Shown here: piece after piece, positions 14,288-26,036 of the stretch
How positions within the stretch are numbered: position 1 is the first letter of the stretch
How the letters are laid out: the number at the start of each line of letters is the position of its first letter
DNA from: Bacteroidota bacterium
GTDB taxonomy: Bacteria; Bacteroidota; Bacteroidia; Bacteroidales; F082
Direction: 5' to 3'
Assembly: GCA_003650365.1 (NCBI GenBank)
Contig: QMPA01000002.1
Location: forward strand, 1 to 53,885
DNA length: 53,885 nucleotides
Translations under genes and position numbers: made by a program
Notes under the pieces: generated by a model
Told to the model about the DNA's origin: nothing
The model's input: the letters and a program-made list of their open reading frames with translations, nothing else
The model's database searches: none

Positions 14288-15772
14288 TTATTTTCCGGGT
14301 ACCTGGCTTCCAACGCGAATCATTGCGCAGCGGAATCCAATGGTTGATGCGGCTTCATCTTCGTTTAGATATCTTCTAACACCAGGACTCAGGTAGTAAA
14401 CACCGTCATTCCAAGAGCCTCCTTTAACAACACGTGATTTGTCACTGATCAGTGTGGTTATTCCGTAATCATACATCTGGCCTGTACTATTAATATCCGG
14501 ATCATCACCACTAAGCCAATCAGCTTGTACTGCTGACTGGAAATCACCGTCAAGATAATTCACATTATTTGCCTTGCGGTAATTTTTACGATTGGCTGCT
14601 TCTTCAGGTGTAATTTCAACATATTGAATTCTACCGAGGCTGTCTTTTTCAGCAACATTACCATCCATATCTTTCTTTACATTTTTATATATGTTTCCAC
14701 GATATGGATTGTAGTCGGCTACAACTTCGTGTGAAGAAGGACGATATACATCCAACACCCATTCGCTAACATTACCGGCCATATTATAAAGACCATAGTC
14801 GTTTGGCCAATAGGATCCGATAGGAGCGGGTAACGAAGCACCATCATTAAGGTTGCCTGCGACACCCATATAATCACCGTTTCCACGTTTGAAGTTAGCG
14901 ACAAAGCTACCGTAGTATTTACTCTCGTCAGTCCTTACACCATTTCCGTTCCAGGGATATTCTCTCCGCTCAACAACACGATTGTACAAAGTATTCCCTA
15001 TCAGACCGAGTGCTGCATATTCCCATTCGGCTTCAGTGGGAAGTCGGTAACGAGGAAGTAAAATACCATCTTCAAATCGAACAGCCCTTATTCCTGATCC
15101 TTCCTGATTAAGGTCTTCTTTACCTTCTTTAACAAGTCCTTCGTATTGGCCAGCCAGATATGCATCGGTATTAAAATTGTCGGCATTGCTTTGGTCTGGA
15201 TCAAAATCAAGGATACCAGTTTCAATGAGTAGGTTCTCGTTAACACGGTCAGTTCTCCATGCAGCATAATCGTTTGCCTGTATCCAGGAAACGCCTACTA
15301 CAGGATAATATTGAAATGAAGGATGGCGAAAATAAGTATGAATCAATGGTTCGTTATAAGCCAAACGGTCGCGCCAAACTAAAGTGTCGGGCAATGCATT
15401 TTGCACTACCGATGGGTAATCCTGACCGTAAACCCTGTTTAACCAGTAAATATATTCGCGGTAGGCAAGGTTGCTTACCTCCGTCTGGTCAATGTAAAAG
15501 CTGCTTACAGTAACTTTTCTGGGTTGATTATCCCACTCGTAAAACGGGTTTTCTTCTGTCGCTCCCATTGTAAATGTACCACCTTCAATGAGTACAAGCC
15601 CCGGACCTGTAATTTGTTCCTGCGATTCTGCTACTTCAAAACCACCGTTTTCAGGAGTATTGTATTCCCAACCGGTTGTTTGAGAGCGCTGATTACTTTT
15701 GCAGGATGAAGCTAAAACTGCAATGCTTGCAATTCCCAGAATAAATAGGGTTAACTTATTAATTTTTAACAT
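14288..15772 (-). CDS. gldJ: Gliding motility/T9SS-associated lipoprotein GldJ (SUMF1/FGE-sulfatase-like fold)
   Basis: Lipobox VLASSCKS, TTGWEYNTPENGGFE, GGTFTMGATEENPFYEWDNQPRKVTVSSFYIDQTEVSN, VVKGGSWND...IGFRCAM. Confidence 0.9.
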   Translation of the reverse strand: MLKINKLTLFILGIASIAVLASSCKSNQRSQTTGWEYNTPENGGFEVAESQEQITGPGLVLIEGGTFTMGATEENPFYEWDNQPRKVTVSSFYIDQTEVSNLAYREYIYWLNRVYGQDYPSVVQNALPDTLVWRDRLAYNEPLIHTYFRHPSFQYYPVVGVSWIQANDYAAWRTDRVNENLLIETGILDFDPDQSNADNFNTDAYLAGQYEGLVKEGKEDLNQEGSGIRAVRFEDGILLPRYRLPTEAEWEYAALGLIGNTLYNRVVERREYPWNGNGVRTDESKYYGSFVANFKRGNGDYMGVAGNLNDGASLPAPIGSYWPNDYGLYNMAGNVSEWVLDVYRPSSHEVVADYNPYRGNIYKNVKKDMDGNVAEKDSLGRIQYVEITPEEAANRKNYRKANNVNYLDGDFQSAVQADWLSGDDPDINSTGQMYDYGITTLISDKSRVVKGGSWNDGVYYLSPGVRRYLNEDEAASTIGFRCAMIRVGSQVPGK

Positions 15773-15808
15773 CTTTAATAAAAATTGATTGTTTTACTTT
15801 GTTAATAA

Positions 15809-16816
15809 CTAAAAAGAGGGTGAACTTATTGCTCTTATGTGTCTTCTCTTTGATTCACTGTAAATACAGAAGTCCCAAGCCAGTGATAACTCATGTGAAC
15901 CACCTGAACCACTCAATTGGGAAACAGTAACATCGTAACTGTAACCAATTCTAAGGTGATTGAAAGTTAAGCCAACCAATGCAATAAATGCATCGGGGTT
16001 CTGGAAATTGTGCCTAAACCATGCGCCAACCACCAGTGGTTTTCTCTTTAGGTAAAGTCCTGCATTCAATTGATGAAAATCACCTTGTTGCATATACAAG
16101 ATATTAGGTTGCAATATAAAATCATCCGGATCGTCGTTTCCCAACATACCCTGGCTGAGGTTAATTGTTACACCACCATGTCCGGTAATTTTCATGGGTA
16201 ATTTTGTATTCGGGTCACCATAAAACGAAAGATTAGGTTGTGTAAGGTGATCTACCGCTACACCAATAAACCATTCGTCGTAATAGCCCATAACCAAACC
16301 TGCTGAAAAATCAACAACGCCAATATTGTCCTTTTCAGGACGTGATTCCATTGTTGGATTATCAATTTCTCCAGTAGTTGGATTAATTTGATCTGCAAAA
16401 ACCAGAATATCCCAATCCAGTTTTTCCTGATAGTACCCACCTCTGACACCAAAACTGATAAGAATGGGATCGCTCACTTTTAGTTTATAGGAATAGAACA
16501 AGGAAGCGGAAGTCCTGGTCAAGGCACCATCGCCTTGCCGGTCACTCATTACCAAAACACCAAAACCGCTATTGATTCCGGGTAAGCTTTGGTCGTAAGC
16601 CACGTTATAGGTAACGTATGCATTTGAAAAATTATGCCATTGATTCCGATAATTTAGCCCGACTCTTCCACATTCAGTAGCACCGGCAAGTGCTGGATTT
16701 AAATACAATGGGTTGGCATAGAACTGCGAAAACTGAGCGTCCTGAGCCTGGCTAATGCCCATTGAAACCATTAATACAAAGAATATTACTATTCGGGAAT
16801 ATCTATACATTCGCAC
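15809..16816 (-). CDS. PorP/SprF family type IX secretion membrane protein
   Basis: DAQFSQFYANPLYLNPALAGATECGRVGLNYRNQW, characteristic of PorP/SprF. Confidence 0.92.
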   Translation of the reverse strand: MRMYRYSRIVIFFVLMVSMGISQAQDAQFSQFYANPLYLNPALAGATECGRVGLNYRNQWHNFSNAYVTYNVAYDQSLPGINSGFGVLVMSDRQGDGALTRTSASLFYSYKLKVSDPILISFGVRGGYYQEKLDWDILVFADQINPTTGEIDNPTMESRPEKDNIGVVDFSAGLVMGYYDEWFIGVAVDHLTQPNLSFYGDPNTKLPMKITGHGGVTINLSQGMLGNDDPDDFILQPNILYMQQGDFHQLNAGLYLKRKPLVVGAWFRHNFQNPDAFIALVGLTFNHLRIGYSYDVTVSQLSGSGGSHELSLAWDFCIYSESKRRHIRAISSPSF

Positions 16817-17005
16817 CTCTAGCTGGGTTTTGGTTTTGAGTTGACAATATTACGATCTTTTTTTTAACCGTGTTAAATAATAGATAATTTTTTTATTTGT
16901 ATGAATAAGGCCGTTTCTTTGCAAAATAATTAGGGAGTTTGTACGTTAATGTGTCCGAAAGACCTTCGCTTATTGTTATCAATATTGATTCTAATCAAAC
17001 CGACA

Positions 17006-20000
17006 ATGTTACAACGAAAATACCAGGTATTTGTTTTATTCCTTCTTGTTAGTCTGGCAACTTATTCAATCCCATACAGCTTTACAGAGCAAATAAACTG
17101 GAATAGTATCCAAAGATTTGAAATTGAAGAAGGGGTTTATGCCGAACGGATTTCATTTAAAGGGGCATATTATTCCGGTATGCAATCTTTACCATCGTAT
17201 ATAAAAGAGTATCCCATTCATACCGAATCGGCAACACTGAATGTGTTTCTTATGAATACAATCTTTATTCCGGCTACAGCTGCTGAAACGGAAATTCTGA
17301 TGAAATCAACCGCTCCCGACACAACAGTTTCAGTACAATCTACAATTGTTATTTCGCGAAAGGTGCCTTTTGCAAGAGTTGAAATACTACCTATTAAGTG
17401 GAATAGTAAAAAGCAGATTTTTGAAAAACTGCTGTCTTTTGATCTTGTTGTTGAAGTCGAAGACTTTCCCATTGCCGCTTTTACTGAAACAAAGTATGCA
17501 AGCAATTCGGTACTTAATACCGGGAATTGGTTTAAGGTGAAGATTGATAAAAGCGGGATATTCAAAATTACCTATACAGAATTACAAACGATGGGTTTCG
17601 ATGTCTCTTCAAATCCACGACAAATTGCTCTTTTTGGAAATGGGGGAGGGGTATTACCAGAAAAAAATAATGCTTTCAGATACGATGACCTTGTGGAAAA
17701 CCCAATTATTGTTGTGGGAGAAGATGACGGGAGTTTTGATGAAGGCGACTATATTCTGTTTTATGGCGAAGGACCGGTTGTTTGGAAGTACAATACAGCT
17801 ACACATCGTTTCGTCCACCAGAACAATTATTACGATGATTACTCCTATTATTACCTCACAAATTTAGGACATTCGGCAAAACGCATTGAGGAAGCAGTAC
17901 CTCCATCTGATCTTTTCGATATACAAATCGATGATTTTGACGATTACGCCTTTCATGAAATTGATGAAACCAATATTGCCGGAACTGGCAGGGTCTGGTA
18001 TGGGGAAGCTTTTGATTTTAGCAATACCCAGGAGTTTGCCTTCTCCTTTCCAAATATTATTACGCTCTCAAATACGGCTTATTATAAAGGTAGTTTCGCT
18101 GCAAAGTCCTACAGTACCAGCGCATTTAATATATACATAAATGGTGTTTTACTAAAGTCAGTAAATATGCCCAAAATATCGACCAGTAACCGCTACCAAA
18201 TTGGGCAAAAAAAAGATACTGATTTTTCATTTACTCCCAAAAGCGATCAGCTAACAGTCAAGTTGGTTTACCAACGAGCATCTAACAATGCAGTTGGGTA
18301 TCTTGACTATATCGATCTGAATGTGAGACGAAAATTAATCATGGCTGGTAATCAAATGGCTTTTAGAAAAAAATCGATTGCTGAAGCCAATACAGTTGCT
18401 CGTTATGTATTAGGTAATGCCAATACTGGTATTTCAATATGGGATATTACATATCCGCTTAACCCACAAAAAATTAAAACGCAAGCTGCTAACGGAAAAC
18501 TAACTTTTAATGCTGCTGCTGACACCTTGAGACAATTTATTGCTTTTGATGGACAGACTTATCACCAAACGGAATTTGTTGAAAAAATAGAAAATCAAAA
18601 CTTACATGCAGTAAAAAACATAGACTACCTTATCATTTGTCATCCTGATTTTTTGGCTGAGGGAAATCGGATAGGCGAGTTTCATCGTACGCATGATAAC
18701 ATAAGTTACTTTCTCACCACTACCGAAAAAATCTACAATGAGTATTCTTCGGGTTCACAGGATGTAACTGCTCTTCGTGATTTTATAAAAGGCATTTATG
18801 ATCACAGCGATGCCGGCAGGGAATTGAAATATGTGTTGTTGTTTGGTGATGCTTCTTACGATTACAAAGACCGCATGGCTGATAATTCCAATTATGTTCC
18901 CTGTTGGGAAACCATTGAATCTTTGAACATTGTGAATTCCATTGCTACTGATGATTATTTTGGTTATTTAGATGACGGCGAAGGAGTTTCAGATGCTGAC
19001 AAAGTTGATGTTGGCATTGGTCGTTTCGTTGTTGCCTCTCCAGAGGAAGCTACGCTGGCTGTTGATAAATGCATCCATTATGCTACTAATACGGAGTTTG
19101 TGATGCACCCCTGGAGAAATGTCATTACTTTTCTTGCCGATGACGGGGATGCCAACAGACACCTGAAAGATGCAGAAATACTCGCCGGTTTTTTGAATGA
19201 CAACTACGCTGTTTACAATATCGACAAAATTTATGTTGATGCTTATGAGCAAGTTTCGACACCTTCGGGGCAAAGGGCACCGTTGGTTAATAAGGCAGTA
19301 AACGACCGTATCGGTCAGGGTACCATGATTTTAAACTACTCGGGTCATGGTGGCGAAATTGGCATGGGTCACGAACGTTTCCTGACGATTCCCGATATTA
19401 ATTCCTGGACCAATTACGATGCACTATCTGTATTTATTACAGCTACTTGCGAGTTTAGCCGCTATGACGACCCAACAAGGGTGTCGGCTGGCGAACAGGT
19501 TTTTCTTAATGAGAACGGAGGGGGAATTGCACTGTTTTCAACATCAAGGGCTACTTACGCCGGTGCTAATTTGGCACTTAATTTGGCCATTTACGAAAAC
19601 AATATGTTCGAAAAAATAGATGGTGAATACCCATGCTTTGGAGATATTATCCGTAAATCAAAAAAATTGGGAGGAAGTAACGACAAAAAATTCCTACTTC
19701 TCGGTGACCCTGCTCTGCAAATGGCATACACAGAACATACTGCCAAAACAATAAAAATTAATTCGAATATTGTTGTCGAGGATTATCCCGATACAATCCA
19801 GGCATTGTCAATGGTTACCATCGAAGGAATTGTAACCGACGAGAATGATGAGTTGCTTAGCGATTTTAACGGAGTTCTTTATCCGAAAATATTTGATAAA
19901 GCATCACAAATTCAAACATTCGGAGCTGACCCTGGAAGCATTGCAACAACTTTTTATTTGTATAAAAGTTTACTTTTTAATGGGAAAGCCAGTATCGTAA

Positions 20001-20821
20001 ATGGCACATTTGAATTTGAATTTATGATGCCAAAGGACATTGCATATAATTATGGAAACGGTCGAATAAGCTACTATTTAAGGGATGAGCTGACAGACGG
20101 TAATGGTTATACCCAAGACTTTATTATTGGTGGGGTTGATGAAAATGCTACTGAGGACAAAATAGGGCCAGACATTACTTTGTTCATGAACGATACCACT
20201 TTTCTATCAGGTGATCGAACAGATGAAAACCCTGTACTGCTGGCATTTGTTGAAGACGAGAGTGGCATCAATACTACAGGTAATGGAATTGGCCACAATA
20301 TTACAGCAATTATTGATGAAGAGAGTTCGTTAAGCTATAACTTGAATGCGTATTACGAGTCGGAAAGAAACAGTTATAACAAAGGAACTGTTACTTATCC
20401 CTTTAACGATCTTGCAGATGGTGAGCATGTTTTGAGTCTGAAAGTGTGGGATGTTCACAATAACTCATCCATTGCTTATCTTAATTTTTTGGTTACTACT
20501 TCCGAAGAATTGGTGATTGAAAACCTGATGAATTACCCGAATCCGTTTTTATACGAAACTAATTTTGTTTTCGACCACAACCAATCTGGTCAGGAACTGG
20601 ATGTTATTATAGAGGTATATAATTCATCAGGTATGTTGGTTCGTACATTGGAAACGCACATTATACCGGAAGGTTATAAATCGCCACCATTAAGGTGGGA
20701 TGCCCGTACGGATGGTGGTGGTTTAATAGGCCGTGGATTTTATGTTTACCGGCTGATTGTTAAAAAACCAGATGGTGAAACAGCCGAAGCCAGATCGAAA
20801 CTTGTATTTATAAAACACTAA
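17006..20821 (+). CDS. porU: Type IX secretion system sortase PorU (peptidase C25 family), copy 1
   Basis: SVLNTGNWFKVKIDKSGIFKITYTEL, ILNYSGHGGEIGMGHERF (His), ITATCEFSRYDDP (Cys), NYPNPF C-terminal region. In-frame ATG at 17006 precedes a signal-like sequence. Confidence 0.92.
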   Translation: MLQRKYQVFVLFLLVSLATYSIPYSFTEQINWNSIQRFEIEEGVYAERISFKGAYYSGMQSLPSYIKEYPIHTESATLNVFLMNTIFIPATAAETEILMKSTAPDTTVSVQSTIVISRKVPFARVEILPIKWNSKKQIFEKLLSFDLVVEVEDFPIAAFTETKYASNSVLNTGNWFKVKIDKSGIFKITYTELQTMGFDVSSNPRQIALFGNGGGVLPEKNNAFRYDDLVENPIIVVGEDDGSFDEGDYILFYGEGPVVWKYNTATHRFVHQNNYYDDYSYYYLTNLGHSAKRIEEAVPPSDLFDIQIDDFDDYAFHEIDETNIAGTGRVWYGEAFDFSNTQEFAFSFPNIITLSNTAYYKGSFAAKSYSTSAFNIYINGVLLKSVNMPKISTSNRYQIGQKKDTDFSFTPKSDQLTVKLVYQRASNNAVGYLDYIDLNVRRKLIMAGNQMAFRKKSIAEANTVARYVLGNANTGISIWDITYPLNPQKIKTQAANGKLTFNAAADTLRQFIAFDGQTYHQTEFVEKIENQNLHAVKNIDYLIICHPDFLAEGNRIGEFHRTHDNISYFLTTTEKIYNEYSSGSQDVTALRDFIKGIYDHSDAGRELKYVLLFGDASYDYKDRMADNSNYVPCWETIESLNIVNSIATDDYFGYLDDGEGVSDADKVDVGIGRFVVASPEEATLAVDKCIHYATNTEFVMHPWRNVITFLADDGDANRHLKDAEILAGFLNDNYAVYNIDKIYVDAYEQVSTPSGQRAPLVNKAVNDRIGQGTMILNYSGHGGEIGMGHERFLTIPDINSWTNYDALSVFITATCEFSRYDDPTRVSAGEQVFLNENGGGIALFSTSRATYAGANLALNLAIYENNMFEKIDGEYPCFGDIIRKSKKLGGSNDKKFLLLGDPALQMAYTEHTAKTIKINSNIVVEDYPDTIQALSMVTIEGIVTDENDELLSDFNGVLYPKIFDKASQIQTFGADPGSIATTFYLYKSLLFNGKASIVNGTFEFEFMMPKDIAYNYGNGRISYYLRDELTDGNGYTQDFIIGGVDENATEDKIGPDITLFMNDTTFLSGDRTDENPVLLAFVEDESGINTTGNGIGHNITAIIDEESSLSYNLNAYYESERNSYNKGTVTYPFNDLADGEHVLSLKVWDVHNNSSIAYLNFLVTTSEELVIENLMNYPNPFLYETNFVFDHNQSGQELDVIIEVYNSSGMLVRTLETHIIPEGYKSPPLRWDARTDGGGLIGRGFYVYRLIVKKPDGETAEARSKLVFIKH

Positions 20822-20897
20822 TGAACCAAGACATCGATTTTTGTGTTTTCTTTGCAAATTGATAGAACGTCTGAGTTAAAGATGAATGTAAATTAGA

Positions 20898-23800
20898 ATG
20901 AACCGGATATTAACTTTTTTCTTGCTGCTTTTTCTTCCTTTGATTTTTATGGGTCAAAAGGAGATTTCTGTGCAATTAAATTGGACGGGTATTCAGTCGC
21001 AACAAACGGTTAAAGGACTGGAAGTAAATAGCCTGGTATTTGACGATGCCACTAACTTATACGATTTCGGTGCACTATCGGTTTACTCATTTTCGCTGCC
21101 TTTGCCCGGAGAGTTTTTAGCATACGAACTCAGTTTGTCCAATATTGTTTCCGATACAATTCCGAAGGAAGAAGCACTGTGCTTGACGGATATGGAGCTG
21201 GTGACCAACAAAATTCAATACAGGATTGTCCCAAATAGTAATAATGTTGAGTTGTTTATCTTACCTTATCAGTTGGCTGATGATGGAAAAACGTATATAA
21301 AATTTCAAGGTTTTGAAGTTTTAGTGGATATTGTCCCGGCCGGGGATTATACCCGGAAAACACCTGTTATTGTTAGTTATACAAATGAATCGGTATTAAA
21401 TACAGGAAGCTGGTTTAAATTGGGCATTGCCGAAACCGGCATCCACAAACTGACTTATACCGATTTGGAAGAAATGGGAATCAATCCCCAACAGTTAGAT
21501 CCTGCCAAATTGGGCATTTTCGGAAATTATGCAGGTATGTTGCCCGAATACAATGGCGACCGTCGGGCTGATGATTTGCAGGAAAATACCATTTTTATTG
21601 CTGGAGTAGAAGATGGGAAATTTGATACCGAGGATTATATTTTGTTTTATGCCAAATCGAGTGTGCACTGGCGATACAATATTTTTACCGGACGTATCGA
21701 TCATTTTAATAACCTGTATGCCGATACAACTTATTACTTCTTTACAACCAATAAAGGAAACAACAAAAGAATTGACACGCTTAGCAGTTCGGGGCAAACC
21801 CCTTCCGAAACCATTGATTCTTATTACGATTTTACAGCCCACGATCGCGATTTGGAAAACCTTATTTACTCGGGAAAAGTATGGTATGGCGAACGCCTGA
21901 CACTGGACACAAGTGAACGAACATTCTCCTTTTCTTTTCCCGGCCTTAAAATCGAACGCCCTGTTTATATGAGTTTTGAAATGGCGATCAGGGCTTTTGA
22001 AAATACTTATTACCGGGTTTTTGTAAACGATGAAATTGTAATCGATTCAACACGGATTCTAAAAACCAGCCCCAATGGTCCTTATGCCAGGCAATCAAAA
22101 AGAAAGGTAACTTTTTTTACCAATAGCGAAAACCTTGAAGTAAAAGTGAAATATTATACTACATCGGGAACTTCAATCGCATGGATTAATTTCATCGAAC
22201 TTAATGTAGAAAAGGAGTTAAATTTTACTGGTGGACAAATGGGATTTCGCGACCCGCATATAGTGGCGGCAGGAAACATCACGCGCTTTAATTTCGACAA
22301 TGCACAAAGTGACGCAATTATTTGGGATATCTCAGATTTTCATAATCCTATCCAGATTGAATATATTACAGATGGTGGCAGCGGCATACATTTTACTTTG
22401 CCCACTGATACCATCCAGGATTTTATCATTTTCGATCCTGAATCATCCTATAGGCCAGTTGTTTTCGAACCGATTGAAAATCAAAATTTGCACGGCATTA
22501 CACAGGCAAAGCTGATTGTAATTAGTCCGGAAATTTTTCTGGAACAAGCCAACCGTTATGCGCAAATACATCGCGATCAGGATGATATGACAGTTTTGGT
22601 TTTAACGCCCGAGCAAATTTATAACGAGTTTTCATCGGGCTCTCAGGATGTTACTGCCATCAGGGATTTTATGCGGATGTTATGGAAAAAAGGAATTTTT
22701 GGTGACGAACCGGCTTATTTAATGTTGTTTGGCGATGGTTCTTACGATTACAAAGACCGTGTTCACCACAACACCAATTTTGTACCAACCTACCAATCGG
22801 ACAAATCATTGATTCACACACAGTCCTACGTAACCGATGACTATTTTGGTTTACTCGATGATAATGAAGGTTTAAATTGTTCAGGTGTTCTTGATATTGG
22901 CATTGGCAGGTTTCCTATTTCTACAGTAGAGCAGGCAGAAATTGCAGTAAACAAACTGGAATACTACTTGGCAAAGAATGCCAATGTAATGCGTGACTGG
23001 CGGAACGATATATGTTTTATTGCTGATGATCAGGATGGTAATCTGCATTTGAAACAAGCCACACAACTGATTGATATTGTCGATACAATGTCGGCTTGGT
23101 TTACTACCAATAAAGTTTTTATAGATGCCTATACCAAAGTATCAATTCCTGATGGTAAAAGATATCCGGAAGTAAATAAGGTAATAAAAAATCAGGTTGA
23201 TAGGGGAGCGCTAATTGTTAATTATACCGGTCACGGTGGGTTAATTGGCTGGGCAGATGAACGTATTCTGGATGTACCCACAATTATGGGATGGGAAAAT
23301 ATAAACAATTTGCCACTTTTTATTACAGCAACCTGCGAGTTCAGTCGTTTTGATGATCCGGAATTTGTTTCGGCTGGTGAACTTACTTTTCTGAACGAAA
23401 AGGGAGGGGCTATTGCTTTACTGACAACAACCCGGCTGGCCTTTGCCGCTGCAAATATCAAAGTAAATCGAGAAATTTACTATCACCTCAGAGAAAAAAT
23501 AAATGGAAATTACCCAAGGCTTGGCGACTTAATTCGATTGGCAAAAGATCCTTCGAGTACCAGTTATCTAAATTTTGTTTTACTTGGCGATCCTGCAATG
23601 CAATTGGTTTTCCCGGAACACAATGTGGTTACCACCAATATTAGCAACAAAGCAAATGGTGAAATTGCCGATACTGTAAATGCCATGTCCGAGCTTACAA
23701 TTCAGGGGGAAATTATTGATTGCTCAGGAAACAAAGTGTCCGATTTTAATGGATATCTATATCCGAAGGTGTTTGATAAGCCAACAAAATATTCAACACT

Positions 23801-24707
23801 TGGAAATGATGTGGGTAGTTATCCGGTAGATTTTAAGCTTTCTGACAAAATATTGTATTCAGGAAAGGTTAGTATAGTTGACGGTAGTTTTGAGTTTACT
23901 GTCCGTATTCCAAAAGATATTTCTTACCAATACGGATTTGGAAAAATTAATTATTATGCACTTGATACTTCACAATTTGTGGATGCCTGGGGAGAATATG
24001 AACAATTGTTAATTGGGGGAATAAATGAAGATGCGGAAATTGATGACGATGGTCCTGAAATAAATCTTTACCTTGATACACATAACTTTAAGCCAGGAAA
24101 TACCACTTCAAGTAAGCCCTTGCTGATTGCCGATTTGTTCGATGAACAAGGTATTCAGACAACAGGGCATAGCTTGGGACGCGATTTATCGTTGGTAATT
24201 GATAGCGATTTTGGGAACTCAAAAATTGTTAACGACTATTTTTCTCCTGACGTTGACACTTATCAGAGTGGCGAAGTAAAATATCAGTTCAATAACCTAA
24301 CAGCAGGATGGCATGTGCTGAGTTTAAAGGCCTGGGATCTGCAAAACAATTCATCGGAAGAGTCGATTGATTTTTATGTTGATGACGATGCTGAAATCTT
24401 ACTCCGGGAGGTGGTGAATTATCCGAATCCGTTTATCAATGAAACAAACTTCGGATTTGTTCACAATAAGAGCGGCGTACAACTTCAAGTTGAAATTAAA
24501 ATTTATGACCTGAATGGAAGATTTGTTGGGATACTAAATGAAACAATCTATTCTTCAGGCTATCAGAGTCAAGCCATCGTCTGGAACGGAAGAAACCAAA
24601 ATGGGGATAAGGTTAATCCCGGACTGTACACCTACCATATTTCGGTTACCGATATGTATGGGAATGTAAGTGTTCAACGACAAAAAATGATAAAGTTGGG
24701 TGAATAA
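20898..24707 (+). CDS. PorU-like C25 peptidase/sortase, tandem paralogue
   Basis: Collinear with the preceding ORF: SVLNTGSWFKLGIAETGIHKLTYTDL, IVNYTGHGGLIGWADERI, ITATCEFSRFDDPE, NYPNPFINETNFGF. Confidence 0.9.
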   Translation: MNRILTFFLLLFLPLIFMGQKEISVQLNWTGIQSQQTVKGLEVNSLVFDDATNLYDFGALSVYSFSLPLPGEFLAYELSLSNIVSDTIPKEEALCLTDMELVTNKIQYRIVPNSNNVELFILPYQLADDGKTYIKFQGFEVLVDIVPAGDYTRKTPVIVSYTNESVLNTGSWFKLGIAETGIHKLTYTDLEEMGINPQQLDPAKLGIFGNYAGMLPEYNGDRRADDLQENTIFIAGVEDGKFDTEDYILFYAKSSVHWRYNIFTGRIDHFNNLYADTTYYFFTTNKGNNKRIDTLSSSGQTPSETIDSYYDFTAHDRDLENLIYSGKVWYGERLTLDTSERTFSFSFPGLKIERPVYMSFEMAIRAFENTYYRVFVNDEIVIDSTRILKTSPNGPYARQSKRKVTFFTNSENLEVKVKYYTTSGTSIAWINFIELNVEKELNFTGGQMGFRDPHIVAAGNITRFNFDNAQSDAIIWDISDFHNPIQIEYITDGGSGIHFTLPTDTIQDFIIFDPESSYRPVVFEPIENQNLHGITQAKLIVISPEIFLEQANRYAQIHRDQDDMTVLVLTPEQIYNEFSSGSQDVTAIRDFMRMLWKKGIFGDEPAYLMLFGDGSYDYKDRVHHNTNFVPTYQSDKSLIHTQSYVTDDYFGLLDDNEGLNCSGVLDIGIGRFPISTVEQAEIAVNKLEYYLAKNANVMRDWRNDICFIADDQDGNLHLKQATQLIDIVDTMSAWFTTNKVFIDAYTKVSIPDGKRYPEVNKVIKNQVDRGALIVNYTGHGGLIGWADERILDVPTIMGWENINNLPLFITATCEFSRFDDPEFVSAGELTFLNEKGGAIALLTTTRLAFAAANIKVNREIYYHLREKINGNYPRLGDLIRLAKDPSSTSYLNFVLLGDPAMQLVFPEHNVVTTNISNKANGEIADTVNAMSELTIQGEIIDCSGNKVSDFNGYLYPKVFDKPTKYSTLGNDVGSYPVDFKLSDKILYSGKVSIVDGSFEFTVRIPKDISYQYGFGKINYYALDTSQFVDAWGEYEQLLIGGINEDAEIDDDGPEINLYLDTHNFKPGNTTSSKPLLIADLFDEQGIQTTGHSLGRDLSLVIDSDFGNSKIVNDYFSPDVDTYQSGEVKYQFNNLTAGWHVLSLKAWDLQNNSSEESIDFYVDDDAEILLREVVNYPNPFINETNFGFVHNKSGVQLQVEIKIYDLNGRFVGILNETIYSSGYQSQAIVWNGRNQNGDKVNPGLYTYHISVTDMYGNVSVQRQKMIKLGE

Positions 24708-24809: not shown

Positions 24810-26036
24810 ATGAAATTTAAGATTTTCCTTACGGCAACTATTCTCGCATCATTTTTGAGTACCAGTGCACAATACCATAGTCTTGGTGGCCAGGGAGACG
24901 GCCCAAATGTAATCACGACTGCTGTCCCTTTTTTAATGATTGGTCCTGATGCCCGCGCTGGTGGTATGGGCGATGGTGGAGTCGCTACTTCTCCCGATGC
25001 CAACTCGATGCATTGGAATGCTGCTAAATTTGCTTTTATCGACCAAAAATTTGGATTCGCTATTTCTTATACACCCTGGCTGCGTAACCTGGTAAACGAC
25101 ATTAACCTGCTTTATGCTAGCTATTTCAACAGGATTGGAGATATGCAAACCATTGCTTTCAGCTTGCGTTATTTTACGCTGGGAGAAATTACTTTTACAG
25201 ATAATCAGGGACAGGTTCTTGGCATTTTCAAACCCAACGAATATGCCATAGATGGAACTTATGCCCGTAAATTATCCGAGCATTTATCAATTGCTGTTGC
25301 TGCACGTTTTATATATTCGAACCTTACACAGGGACAAACCGTTCAGGGGCAAGAAACAACAGCAGGGATTTCTGCAGCAGCCGATATTGCCATGTACTGG
25401 CAAAAAGATGTAGATTGGTTTAAAACAATGGATGCTGAATTTGCCTGGGGGATAAATATCTCTAATATTGGAAGTAAAATGTCTTATTCGAAAAGTAATA
25501 TCGAAAAAGATTTCATCCCAACTAATTTCAGGGTTGGGCCCCGGCTGACACTTTTAATTGATGACTACAACAAACTTTCATTCAATTTCGATATTAATAA
25601 ATTGCTTGTGCCTACACCTCCTATTTATGCACTTGACTCTTCTGGTAATCCCATACCTGTACCGGGATCGGATAAATATGAAATTGAAAAGGGAATGGAT
25701 CCTGATGTACCGCCAATCGGAGGAATGGTTCAGTCGTGGTACGATGCGCCTTACGGATTTAGTGAAGAAATGAGCGAATTCAATTTCGCGGTTGGAATGG
25801 AATATTGGTATAACGATATTTTTGCCTTGCGTGGCGGTTTCTTTTGGGAAGACAAAAACAAAGGGGCACGCCGTTATGCCACATTAGGCGTAGGACTCAG
25901 GTACAATGTATTTGGTCTTGACTTTTCCTATTTAATACCTGTTTCTTCGGCACAAAACCCATTGCAAAATACCTTGCGTTTTTCATTGATTTTCAACTTT
26001 GGAAATGTAACGCAAAGAGTTGATCCAGAAGGATAA
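24810..26036 (+). CDS. porV: Type IX secretion system outer membrane protein PorV (LptO)
   Basis: AVPFLMIGPDARAGGMGDGGVATSPDANSMHWNAAKFAF, FadL-like barrel; follows the porU genes. Confidence 0.93.
   Translation: MKFKIFLTATILASFLSTSAQYHSLGGQGDGPNVITTAVPFLMIGPDARAGGMGDGGVATSPDANSMHWNAAKFAFIDQKFGFAISYTPWLRNLVNDINLLYASYFNRIGDMQTIAFSLRYFTLGEITFTDNQGQVLGIFKPNEYAIDGTYARKLSEHLSIAVAARFIYSNLTQGQTVQGQETTAGISAAADIAMYWQKDVDWFKTMDAEFAWGINISNIGSKMSYSKSNIEKDFIPTNFRVGPRLTLLIDDYNKLSFNFDINKLLVPTPPIYALDSSGNPIPVPGSDKYEIEKGMDPDVPPIGGMVQSWYDAPYGFSEEMSEFNFAVGMEYWYNDIFALRGGFFWEDKNKGARRYATLGVGLRYNVFGLDFSYLIPVSSAQNPLQNTLRFSLIFNFGNVTQRVDPEG

Follow-up and report, generated by a model that had tools for sequence, protein, structure and literature searches.

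Introduction

In the textbook type IX secretion system (T9SS) a cell carries one PorU, which trims the exported proteins and anchors them at the surface. The cycle of this sortase is best described in Porphyromonas gingivalis, for which the accounts we draw on describe a cycle that includes cutting off the C-terminal domain (CTD) of the cargo and transferring the cargo to an amine, with PorV for delivery and PorZ as the source of the acceptor (PMC10202324; PMC8545088). The discussion of this enzyme in one of these accounts describes as unresolved how PorU chooses cargo for release or for anchoring (PMC10202324). In Flavobacterium johnsoniae the shuttles are divided by cargo: PorV serves type A CTDs and cognate PorP/SprF proteins serve type B CTDs (PMC12618676). 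Neither a duplication of PorU nor PorU paralogues turned up in a literature search, with subscription papers outside its reach, and a phylogenetic survey of the system makes no mention of PorU duplicates, paralogues or copies (PMC7323717).

Here we report the analysis of a stretch of 53,885 nucleotides (the window) from a genome of the Bacteroidales family F082, which carries two PorU genes, porU-A and porU-B, in tandem upstream of porV. Judging from the sequence evidence assembled below, the reading that we favour, with a probability of roughly 0.55, is that PorU-A and PorU-B are two active, specialised sortases that differ in the segment aligning to the S1 pocket and share one attachment machinery.

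Two PorU genes in tandem upstream of porV

The first-pass annotation of the window had described a pair of full-length PorU-type ORFs directly upstream of porV and had taken both for sortases: the family models and the comparison with the solved PorU bear out both statements, and all the motifs that it quoted are present, including the His of GHGG and the Cys of ATCEFSR in both copies (Table 1). The two proteins score 800-870 bits above the cut-off of the PorU equivalog model (NF033707; cut-off 420, matched over model positions 1-1094), which excludes a chance match. Both match the Pfam family Peptidase_C25 (PF01364; E 1e-94 and 8e-103) and, from end to end, the P. gingivalis PorU of known structure, 6za2 (E 7e-160 and 3e-138; profile E 2e-231); their multidomain architecture is collinear with that of the solved PorU up to and including the C-terminal CTD, which in PorU-A as in PorU-B is a CTD-like domain with the NYPNPF motif. 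Over 1254 alignment columns the two copies are 39% identical to each other (E = 0). They remain at 130 and 164 bits on the model of the putative sortase PorU2 (NF052324), the cut-off of which is 450. Against gingipains they give a remote match at best (E 0.003) or none, the PorU match runs end to end, and this end-to-end PorU architecture rules out a gingipain-like C25 cargo protease as the identity of either copy. The linkage to porV seen in the window is likewise retained in most relatives. By family models and collinearity with the solved PorU, we assign both tandem ORFs as true PorU sortases.

The longest ORF of porU-A spans 16949-20821, which gives 1290 aa if translation begins at its first ATG. 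A start at 17006 (Met20 of that frame) is more plausible, because a signal-peptide-like stretch, MLQRKYQVFVLFLLVSLATYS, begins there. The porU-B ORF encodes 1269 aa. The genes are closely spaced, with 76 bp between porU-A and porU-B and 102 bp between porU-B and porV, and a consensus scan of these two gaps found no terminator-like site on the plus strand. Divergent to porU, on the minus strand (14288-16816), lie a gene for a GldJ-like lipoprotein and a PorP/SprF gene.

Table 1. Features of the porU-porV locus, with positions in the window, and of the unlinked PorU-like protein U3, with locus positions
Feature	Position	Strand	Evidence or remark
gldJ-like lipoprotein, T9SS context	14288..15772	-	TIGR03524 449 bits, slightly below cut-off 458
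Adjacent PorP/SprF family gene in divergent orientation, T9SS context	15809..16816	-	TIGR03519 253 bits
porU-A, upstream copy	17006..20821	+	NF033707 PorU equivalog 1293 bits; collinear with 6za2; clade A
Catalytic His800 of PorU-A (NYSGHGG), predicted	19346..19348	+	aligned with RgpB His211
Catalytic Cys834 of PorU-A (ATCEFSR), predicted	19448..19450	+	aligned with RgpB Cys244
Thr869 of PorU-A, putative S1-loop residue (RATY), RgpB Gln282 position	19553..19555	+	top A/B-separating column
porU-B, downstream copy adjoining porV	20898..24707	+	NF033707 1219 bits; collinear with 6za2; clade B
Catalytic His779 of PorU-B (NYTGHGG), predicted	23232..23234	+	aligned with RgpB His211
Catalytic Cys813 of PorU-B (ATCEFSR), predicted	23334..23336	+	aligned with RgpB Cys244
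Ala848 of PorU-B, putative S1-loop residue (RLAF)	23439..23441	+	top A/B-separating column
porV, shuttle / outer-membrane partner common to both sortases	24810..26036	+	NF033710 PorV equivalog 495 bits, cut-off 250
U3, unlinked third PorU-like protein	L044:3703-6660 = G000:C226	+	also L108, L106, L107, L110, L111, L112, L109, L085, L113

Catalytic residues of the tandem copies

The catalytic dyad was placed by profile alignment, which sets a His and a Cys of each copy against His211 and Cys244 of the gingipain RgpB. Both residues are kept in 68/68 upstream-type (A) and 65/65 downstream-type (B) sequences, 133 in total, and throughout the 169 A, B and other PorU proteins of the larger alignment; hence there is no dead copy among the tandem members, and PorU-A and PorU-B are both predicted to be catalytically competent. 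It had also been proposed in the first-pass annotation that the second copy might be a scaffold in the attachment complex. A PorU paralogue that lacks the Cys does exist elsewhere in some genomes (U3, below), but a non-catalytic scaffold is contradicted by the B copies themselves, all 65 of which keep both catalytic residues together with the surrounding GHGG and TC motifs; we therefore regard it as very improbable.

The paralogue in question, U3, is a protein of 876-999 aa encoded away from the tandem pair in nine genomes of the window's family and in one further genome, G049. Its catalytic Cys is lost in all ten: it is mostly replaced by Gly, in one case by Ser, and falls in a gap in the most divergent member. 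Five members were examined further; on the PorU model they reach 575-878 bits, with the first ~870 positions of the model covered, and in four of them a match to the type A CTD model TIGR04183 replaces the PorU C-terminus, with no CTD match in the fifth (L113). The loss of the Cys combined with the type A CTD thus points to a dead sortase fold turned into a cargo-like protein. In a tree of 108 rows U3 falls within B on a long branch, most members have the A-like residues at the positions of Thr869 and Lys914, and its placement in the PorU tree is uncertain.

Distribution of the pair

In the window's own family the tandem pair is found in 33 of 37 sampled genomes, the source genome included, and the gene order A, B, porV is constant wherever all three sit on one contig. 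The other four genomes, three of one genus and G015, have a single PorU; one of these single-PorU genomes is a single-contig chromosome of 3.27 Mb. Across the order we recovered 56 loci, from 17 family codes, with one member in each of the clades A and B. Hence, where the pair had been put forward as a trait of this lineage, its presence there stands, and its range is wider, taking in no fewer than 17 of the order's families. Of 295 genomes drawn from the order, 262 have PorU and 72 of these gave two PorU matches above threshold, a figure to be taken as an upper bound because it counts split genes and perhaps also the unlinked U3 type; at the two-match loci fetched across the order, the PorU genes are adjacent in 29/33.

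Outside the order the survey took in ~196 genomes with PorU. Of those with a second match, 27 were re-examined, and a second true PorU was ruled out for each of the 27: the matches are PorU2-like frames below the cut-off, one frameshifted gene or split genes. Second matches of the PorU2 or a similar type in other classes are mostly frames of 1200-2400 aa below the PorU cut-off; that of G109 is a frameshifted gene and those of G260 and G297 are genes split between contigs. A recent or local duplication and an assembly artefact were likewise ruled out as explanations of the pair, given the 39% identity of its members and its presence in independent genomes and families.

The remaining components of the attachment complex are present in one copy. 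Every genome of the family has one PorZ and one full-length PorQ; PorV is single in almost all of them, the exceptions including G003, with a second copy above the cut-off, and G018 and G014, with weaker second matches. The idea that two sortases share one PorV is thus supported by the copy counts, since family genomes carry almost always one PorV alongside the single PorZ and full-length PorQ.

Several loci differ in layout from that of the window. In four genomes of Lentimicrobiaceae (f6; G041, G447, G592 and G528, at loci L091, L203, L190 and L189) porV is absent from the stretch fetched near the porU pair; in G041 it was located on a separate contig. A Bacteroidetes MAG carries a triple tandem of full-length PorU genes (L012:7500-19075), the second and third of which are both of B type, and L192 also has a third PorU copy, the extra one again of B type. 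In G038, a genome with two dispersed PorU genes, two PorZ genes lie 2.4 kb apart (G038:C20:212772-215595), which is a separate case of duplication in the attachment complex.

Descent of the two copies

A first, small tree separated the A and B copies of the family into two clades with a support of 100; on that tree, AU tests did not reject the alternative that the window's family and Lentimicrobiaceae had each duplicated PorU on their own (p 0.26 and 0.31). Separate A and B clades across families came only with the denser sampling of two later trees. In a FastTree of 169 sequences from many more families, clade A (support 98) unites 63 of 68 upstream copies with five single copies, and clade B (support 97) contains 64 of the 66 downstream copies and, out of place, a single upstream copy; the second ORF thus stands in a PorU clade of its own instead of among the ordinary C25 cargo proteases. 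In the second tree, of 108 rows, the A clade has a support of 97 and all B copies lie at one side of a branch with a support of 99 (SH-aLRT), a side that also takes in U3 and one further row. These topologies fit an origin of A and B in one old tandem duplication early in the order, a claim resting on the two denser trees (FastTree, LG+G4), the models of which are weaker on long branches. PorU copies that fall outside the A and B clades, namely those of G048 (f13), G038 (f3, dispersed) and G057 (f22), appear to reflect further PorU duplications of their own.

All five single-copy genes within the A/B lineage are of A type; hence, where one PorU has gone, it is B. Where both are present their trees mirror each other (r = 0.93, 31 genomes). 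The identity between A and B is nearly equal within a genome (37.4%) and between genomes (37.0%), and gene conversion keeping the two alike was accordingly rejected for want of a signal. In 99% of genome pairs the evolutionary rate of B exceeds that of A, which could reflect relaxed constraint instead of specialisation.

This joint inheritance bears on a further explanation, heteromeric control, by which A and B would form a heterodimer with one copy holding the other latent, in the manner of the P. gingivalis PorU homodimer. There, according to a summary of earlier work, a hairpin of the partner inhibits PorU upon dimerisation (PMC10202324, citing Mizgalska 2021), and the structure 6za2 is itself titled dimeric latent PorU. 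The A and B studied here are co-encoded as well as co-inherited. However, the family genomes that lack B retain A alone, and A is therefore independent of B; we consider control of this kind unlikely.

Residues that separate A from B

All 1188 alignment columns were ranked without bias by how well they separate clade A from clade B, with weighting for relatedness. The top column, 869 in PorU-A and 848 in PorU-B, has Thr in 68/68 A sequences, Ala or Ser in 64/64 B sequences and mostly Val in PorU proteins outside both clades. Profile alignment places it opposite Gln282 of RgpB, in the S1 pocket, with the proviso that this alignment joins distant relatives (profile E 1e-9 overall); in gingipain, Gln282 is among the residues touching the arginine at P1 (PMC4357240; PMC9559808). 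From this sequence alignment, residue 869/848 is predicted to line the S1 pocket of PorU. The clades are also separated by residue 868, which is Ala, Pro or Leu in A and Leu in B, and by position 914/892, directly before a conserved GDP motif, which is Lys or Arg in A and Asn or His in B. AlphaFold models of the two copies were of low confidence (mean pLDDT 66.7 and 63.4) and were set aside for residue placement; the best Foldseek match of the low-confidence PorU-B model is 6za2, the dimeric latent PorU. At a GxGHD motif in the C-terminal region, the His is replaced by Arg in 32/32 B copies of the family (residue 1095 of PorU-B in the window), whereas A copies and other PorU proteins have, with few exceptions, kept it.

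That the top column of 1188 aligns to an S1-pocket residue is consistent with a division of labour between the copies. The two enzymes might instead differ in their acceptors, one attaching cargo to an anchor of the lipopolysaccharide type, the other releasing it or using another amine. PorU does both release and anchor cargo, the basis of its choice being presented as unsettled (PMC10202324), but the fixed A/B difference aligns to the P1 side, away from the acceptor side, and there is just one PorZ, the partner that presents lipopolysaccharide. A split by acceptor is accordingly a distinctly unlikely account of the pair.

Cargo counts and copy number

Type A CTD cargo was counted with TIGR04183; the counts are a first look, approximate and with kinship ignored. 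Within the family the median number of candidates is 162 in the 33 two-PorU genomes vs 62 in the four one-PorU genomes (p = 0.002). Across other families of the order, each represented by one genome, the corresponding figures are 133 (n = 7) vs 78.5 (n = 12; p = 0.013), and candidates per Mb are likewise higher there in two-PorU genomes (p = 0.003). The trend is poorly matched by G015, which lacks B yet has 114 candidates in 2.4 Mb, and the association is partly confounded by phylogeny.

An increase of cargo with PorU copy number is what would be seen if the second PorU just added sortase capacity for the same substrates in cargo-rich genomes. The extra B copies of L012 and L192 would suit such a dosage effect, as would the lineages outside the A/B clades (f13, f22 and f3) that appear to have duplicated PorU independently. 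The pair of the window is, however, old: its members are only 39% identical, differ by a fixed, putative pocket residue in 17 families and are not homogenized by gene conversion, a combination that dosage by itself would not predict. On this balance we hold dosage as the sole explanation to be unlikely.

A proposed two-sortase model

The reading of two active, specialised sortases can be set out as the following course of events: early in the history of the order, one tandem duplication would have given rise to two PorU proteins, which then diverged in the segment aligned to the S1 pocket. Its own CTD would take each PorU through the T9SS, after which the protein would reside on PorV at the surface, and, by analogy with the known PorU cycle, both would work with the single PorQ/PorZ set. 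PorU-A would be the indispensable general sortase; PorU-B would be an added, faster-evolving sortase that most likely deals with a further subset of cargo or of cleavage sites in cargo-rich genomes. We thus infer that A and B may process different cargo. A more far-reaching form of this model, in which the distinct S1 pockets of a two-sortase system split one PorV-delivered cargo stream into differently cleaved or anchored sets in many T9SS lineages of the order, is tentative, and we place it short of even odds.

An old and widely kept pair with one fixed candidate specificity residue amounts to a natural experiment on PorU specificity. It further implies that surveys which score PorU as present or absent would miss half of the processing machinery.

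Comparison with known systems

The closest counterpart of both copies is the P. gingivalis PorU (6za2), with which they share a collinear mature protein, the His/Cys dyad, a CTD of their own and a gene adjoining porV. The differences are in number and in the predicted pocket: there is one copy in P. gingivalis, whereas here there are two paralogues of 39% identity, and the S1-loop segment has Val in the P. gingivalis enzyme, Thr in PorU-A and Ala in PorU-B. PorU2 (NF052324), a putative T9SS sortase, has a related C25 region, but the window copies fall far below the cut-off of its model. Gingipain R2, or RgpB (1cvr), has the C25 catalytic domain and the dyad in common with them; it is, however, a cargo protease and a distant profile match. 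The shuttles of F. johnsoniae present a parallel of another kind: there a multiplied T9SS component divides the cargo, as is proposed here, but the component multiplied in that organism is the shuttle, whereas in the system reported here it is the processing enzyme, and PorV is single.
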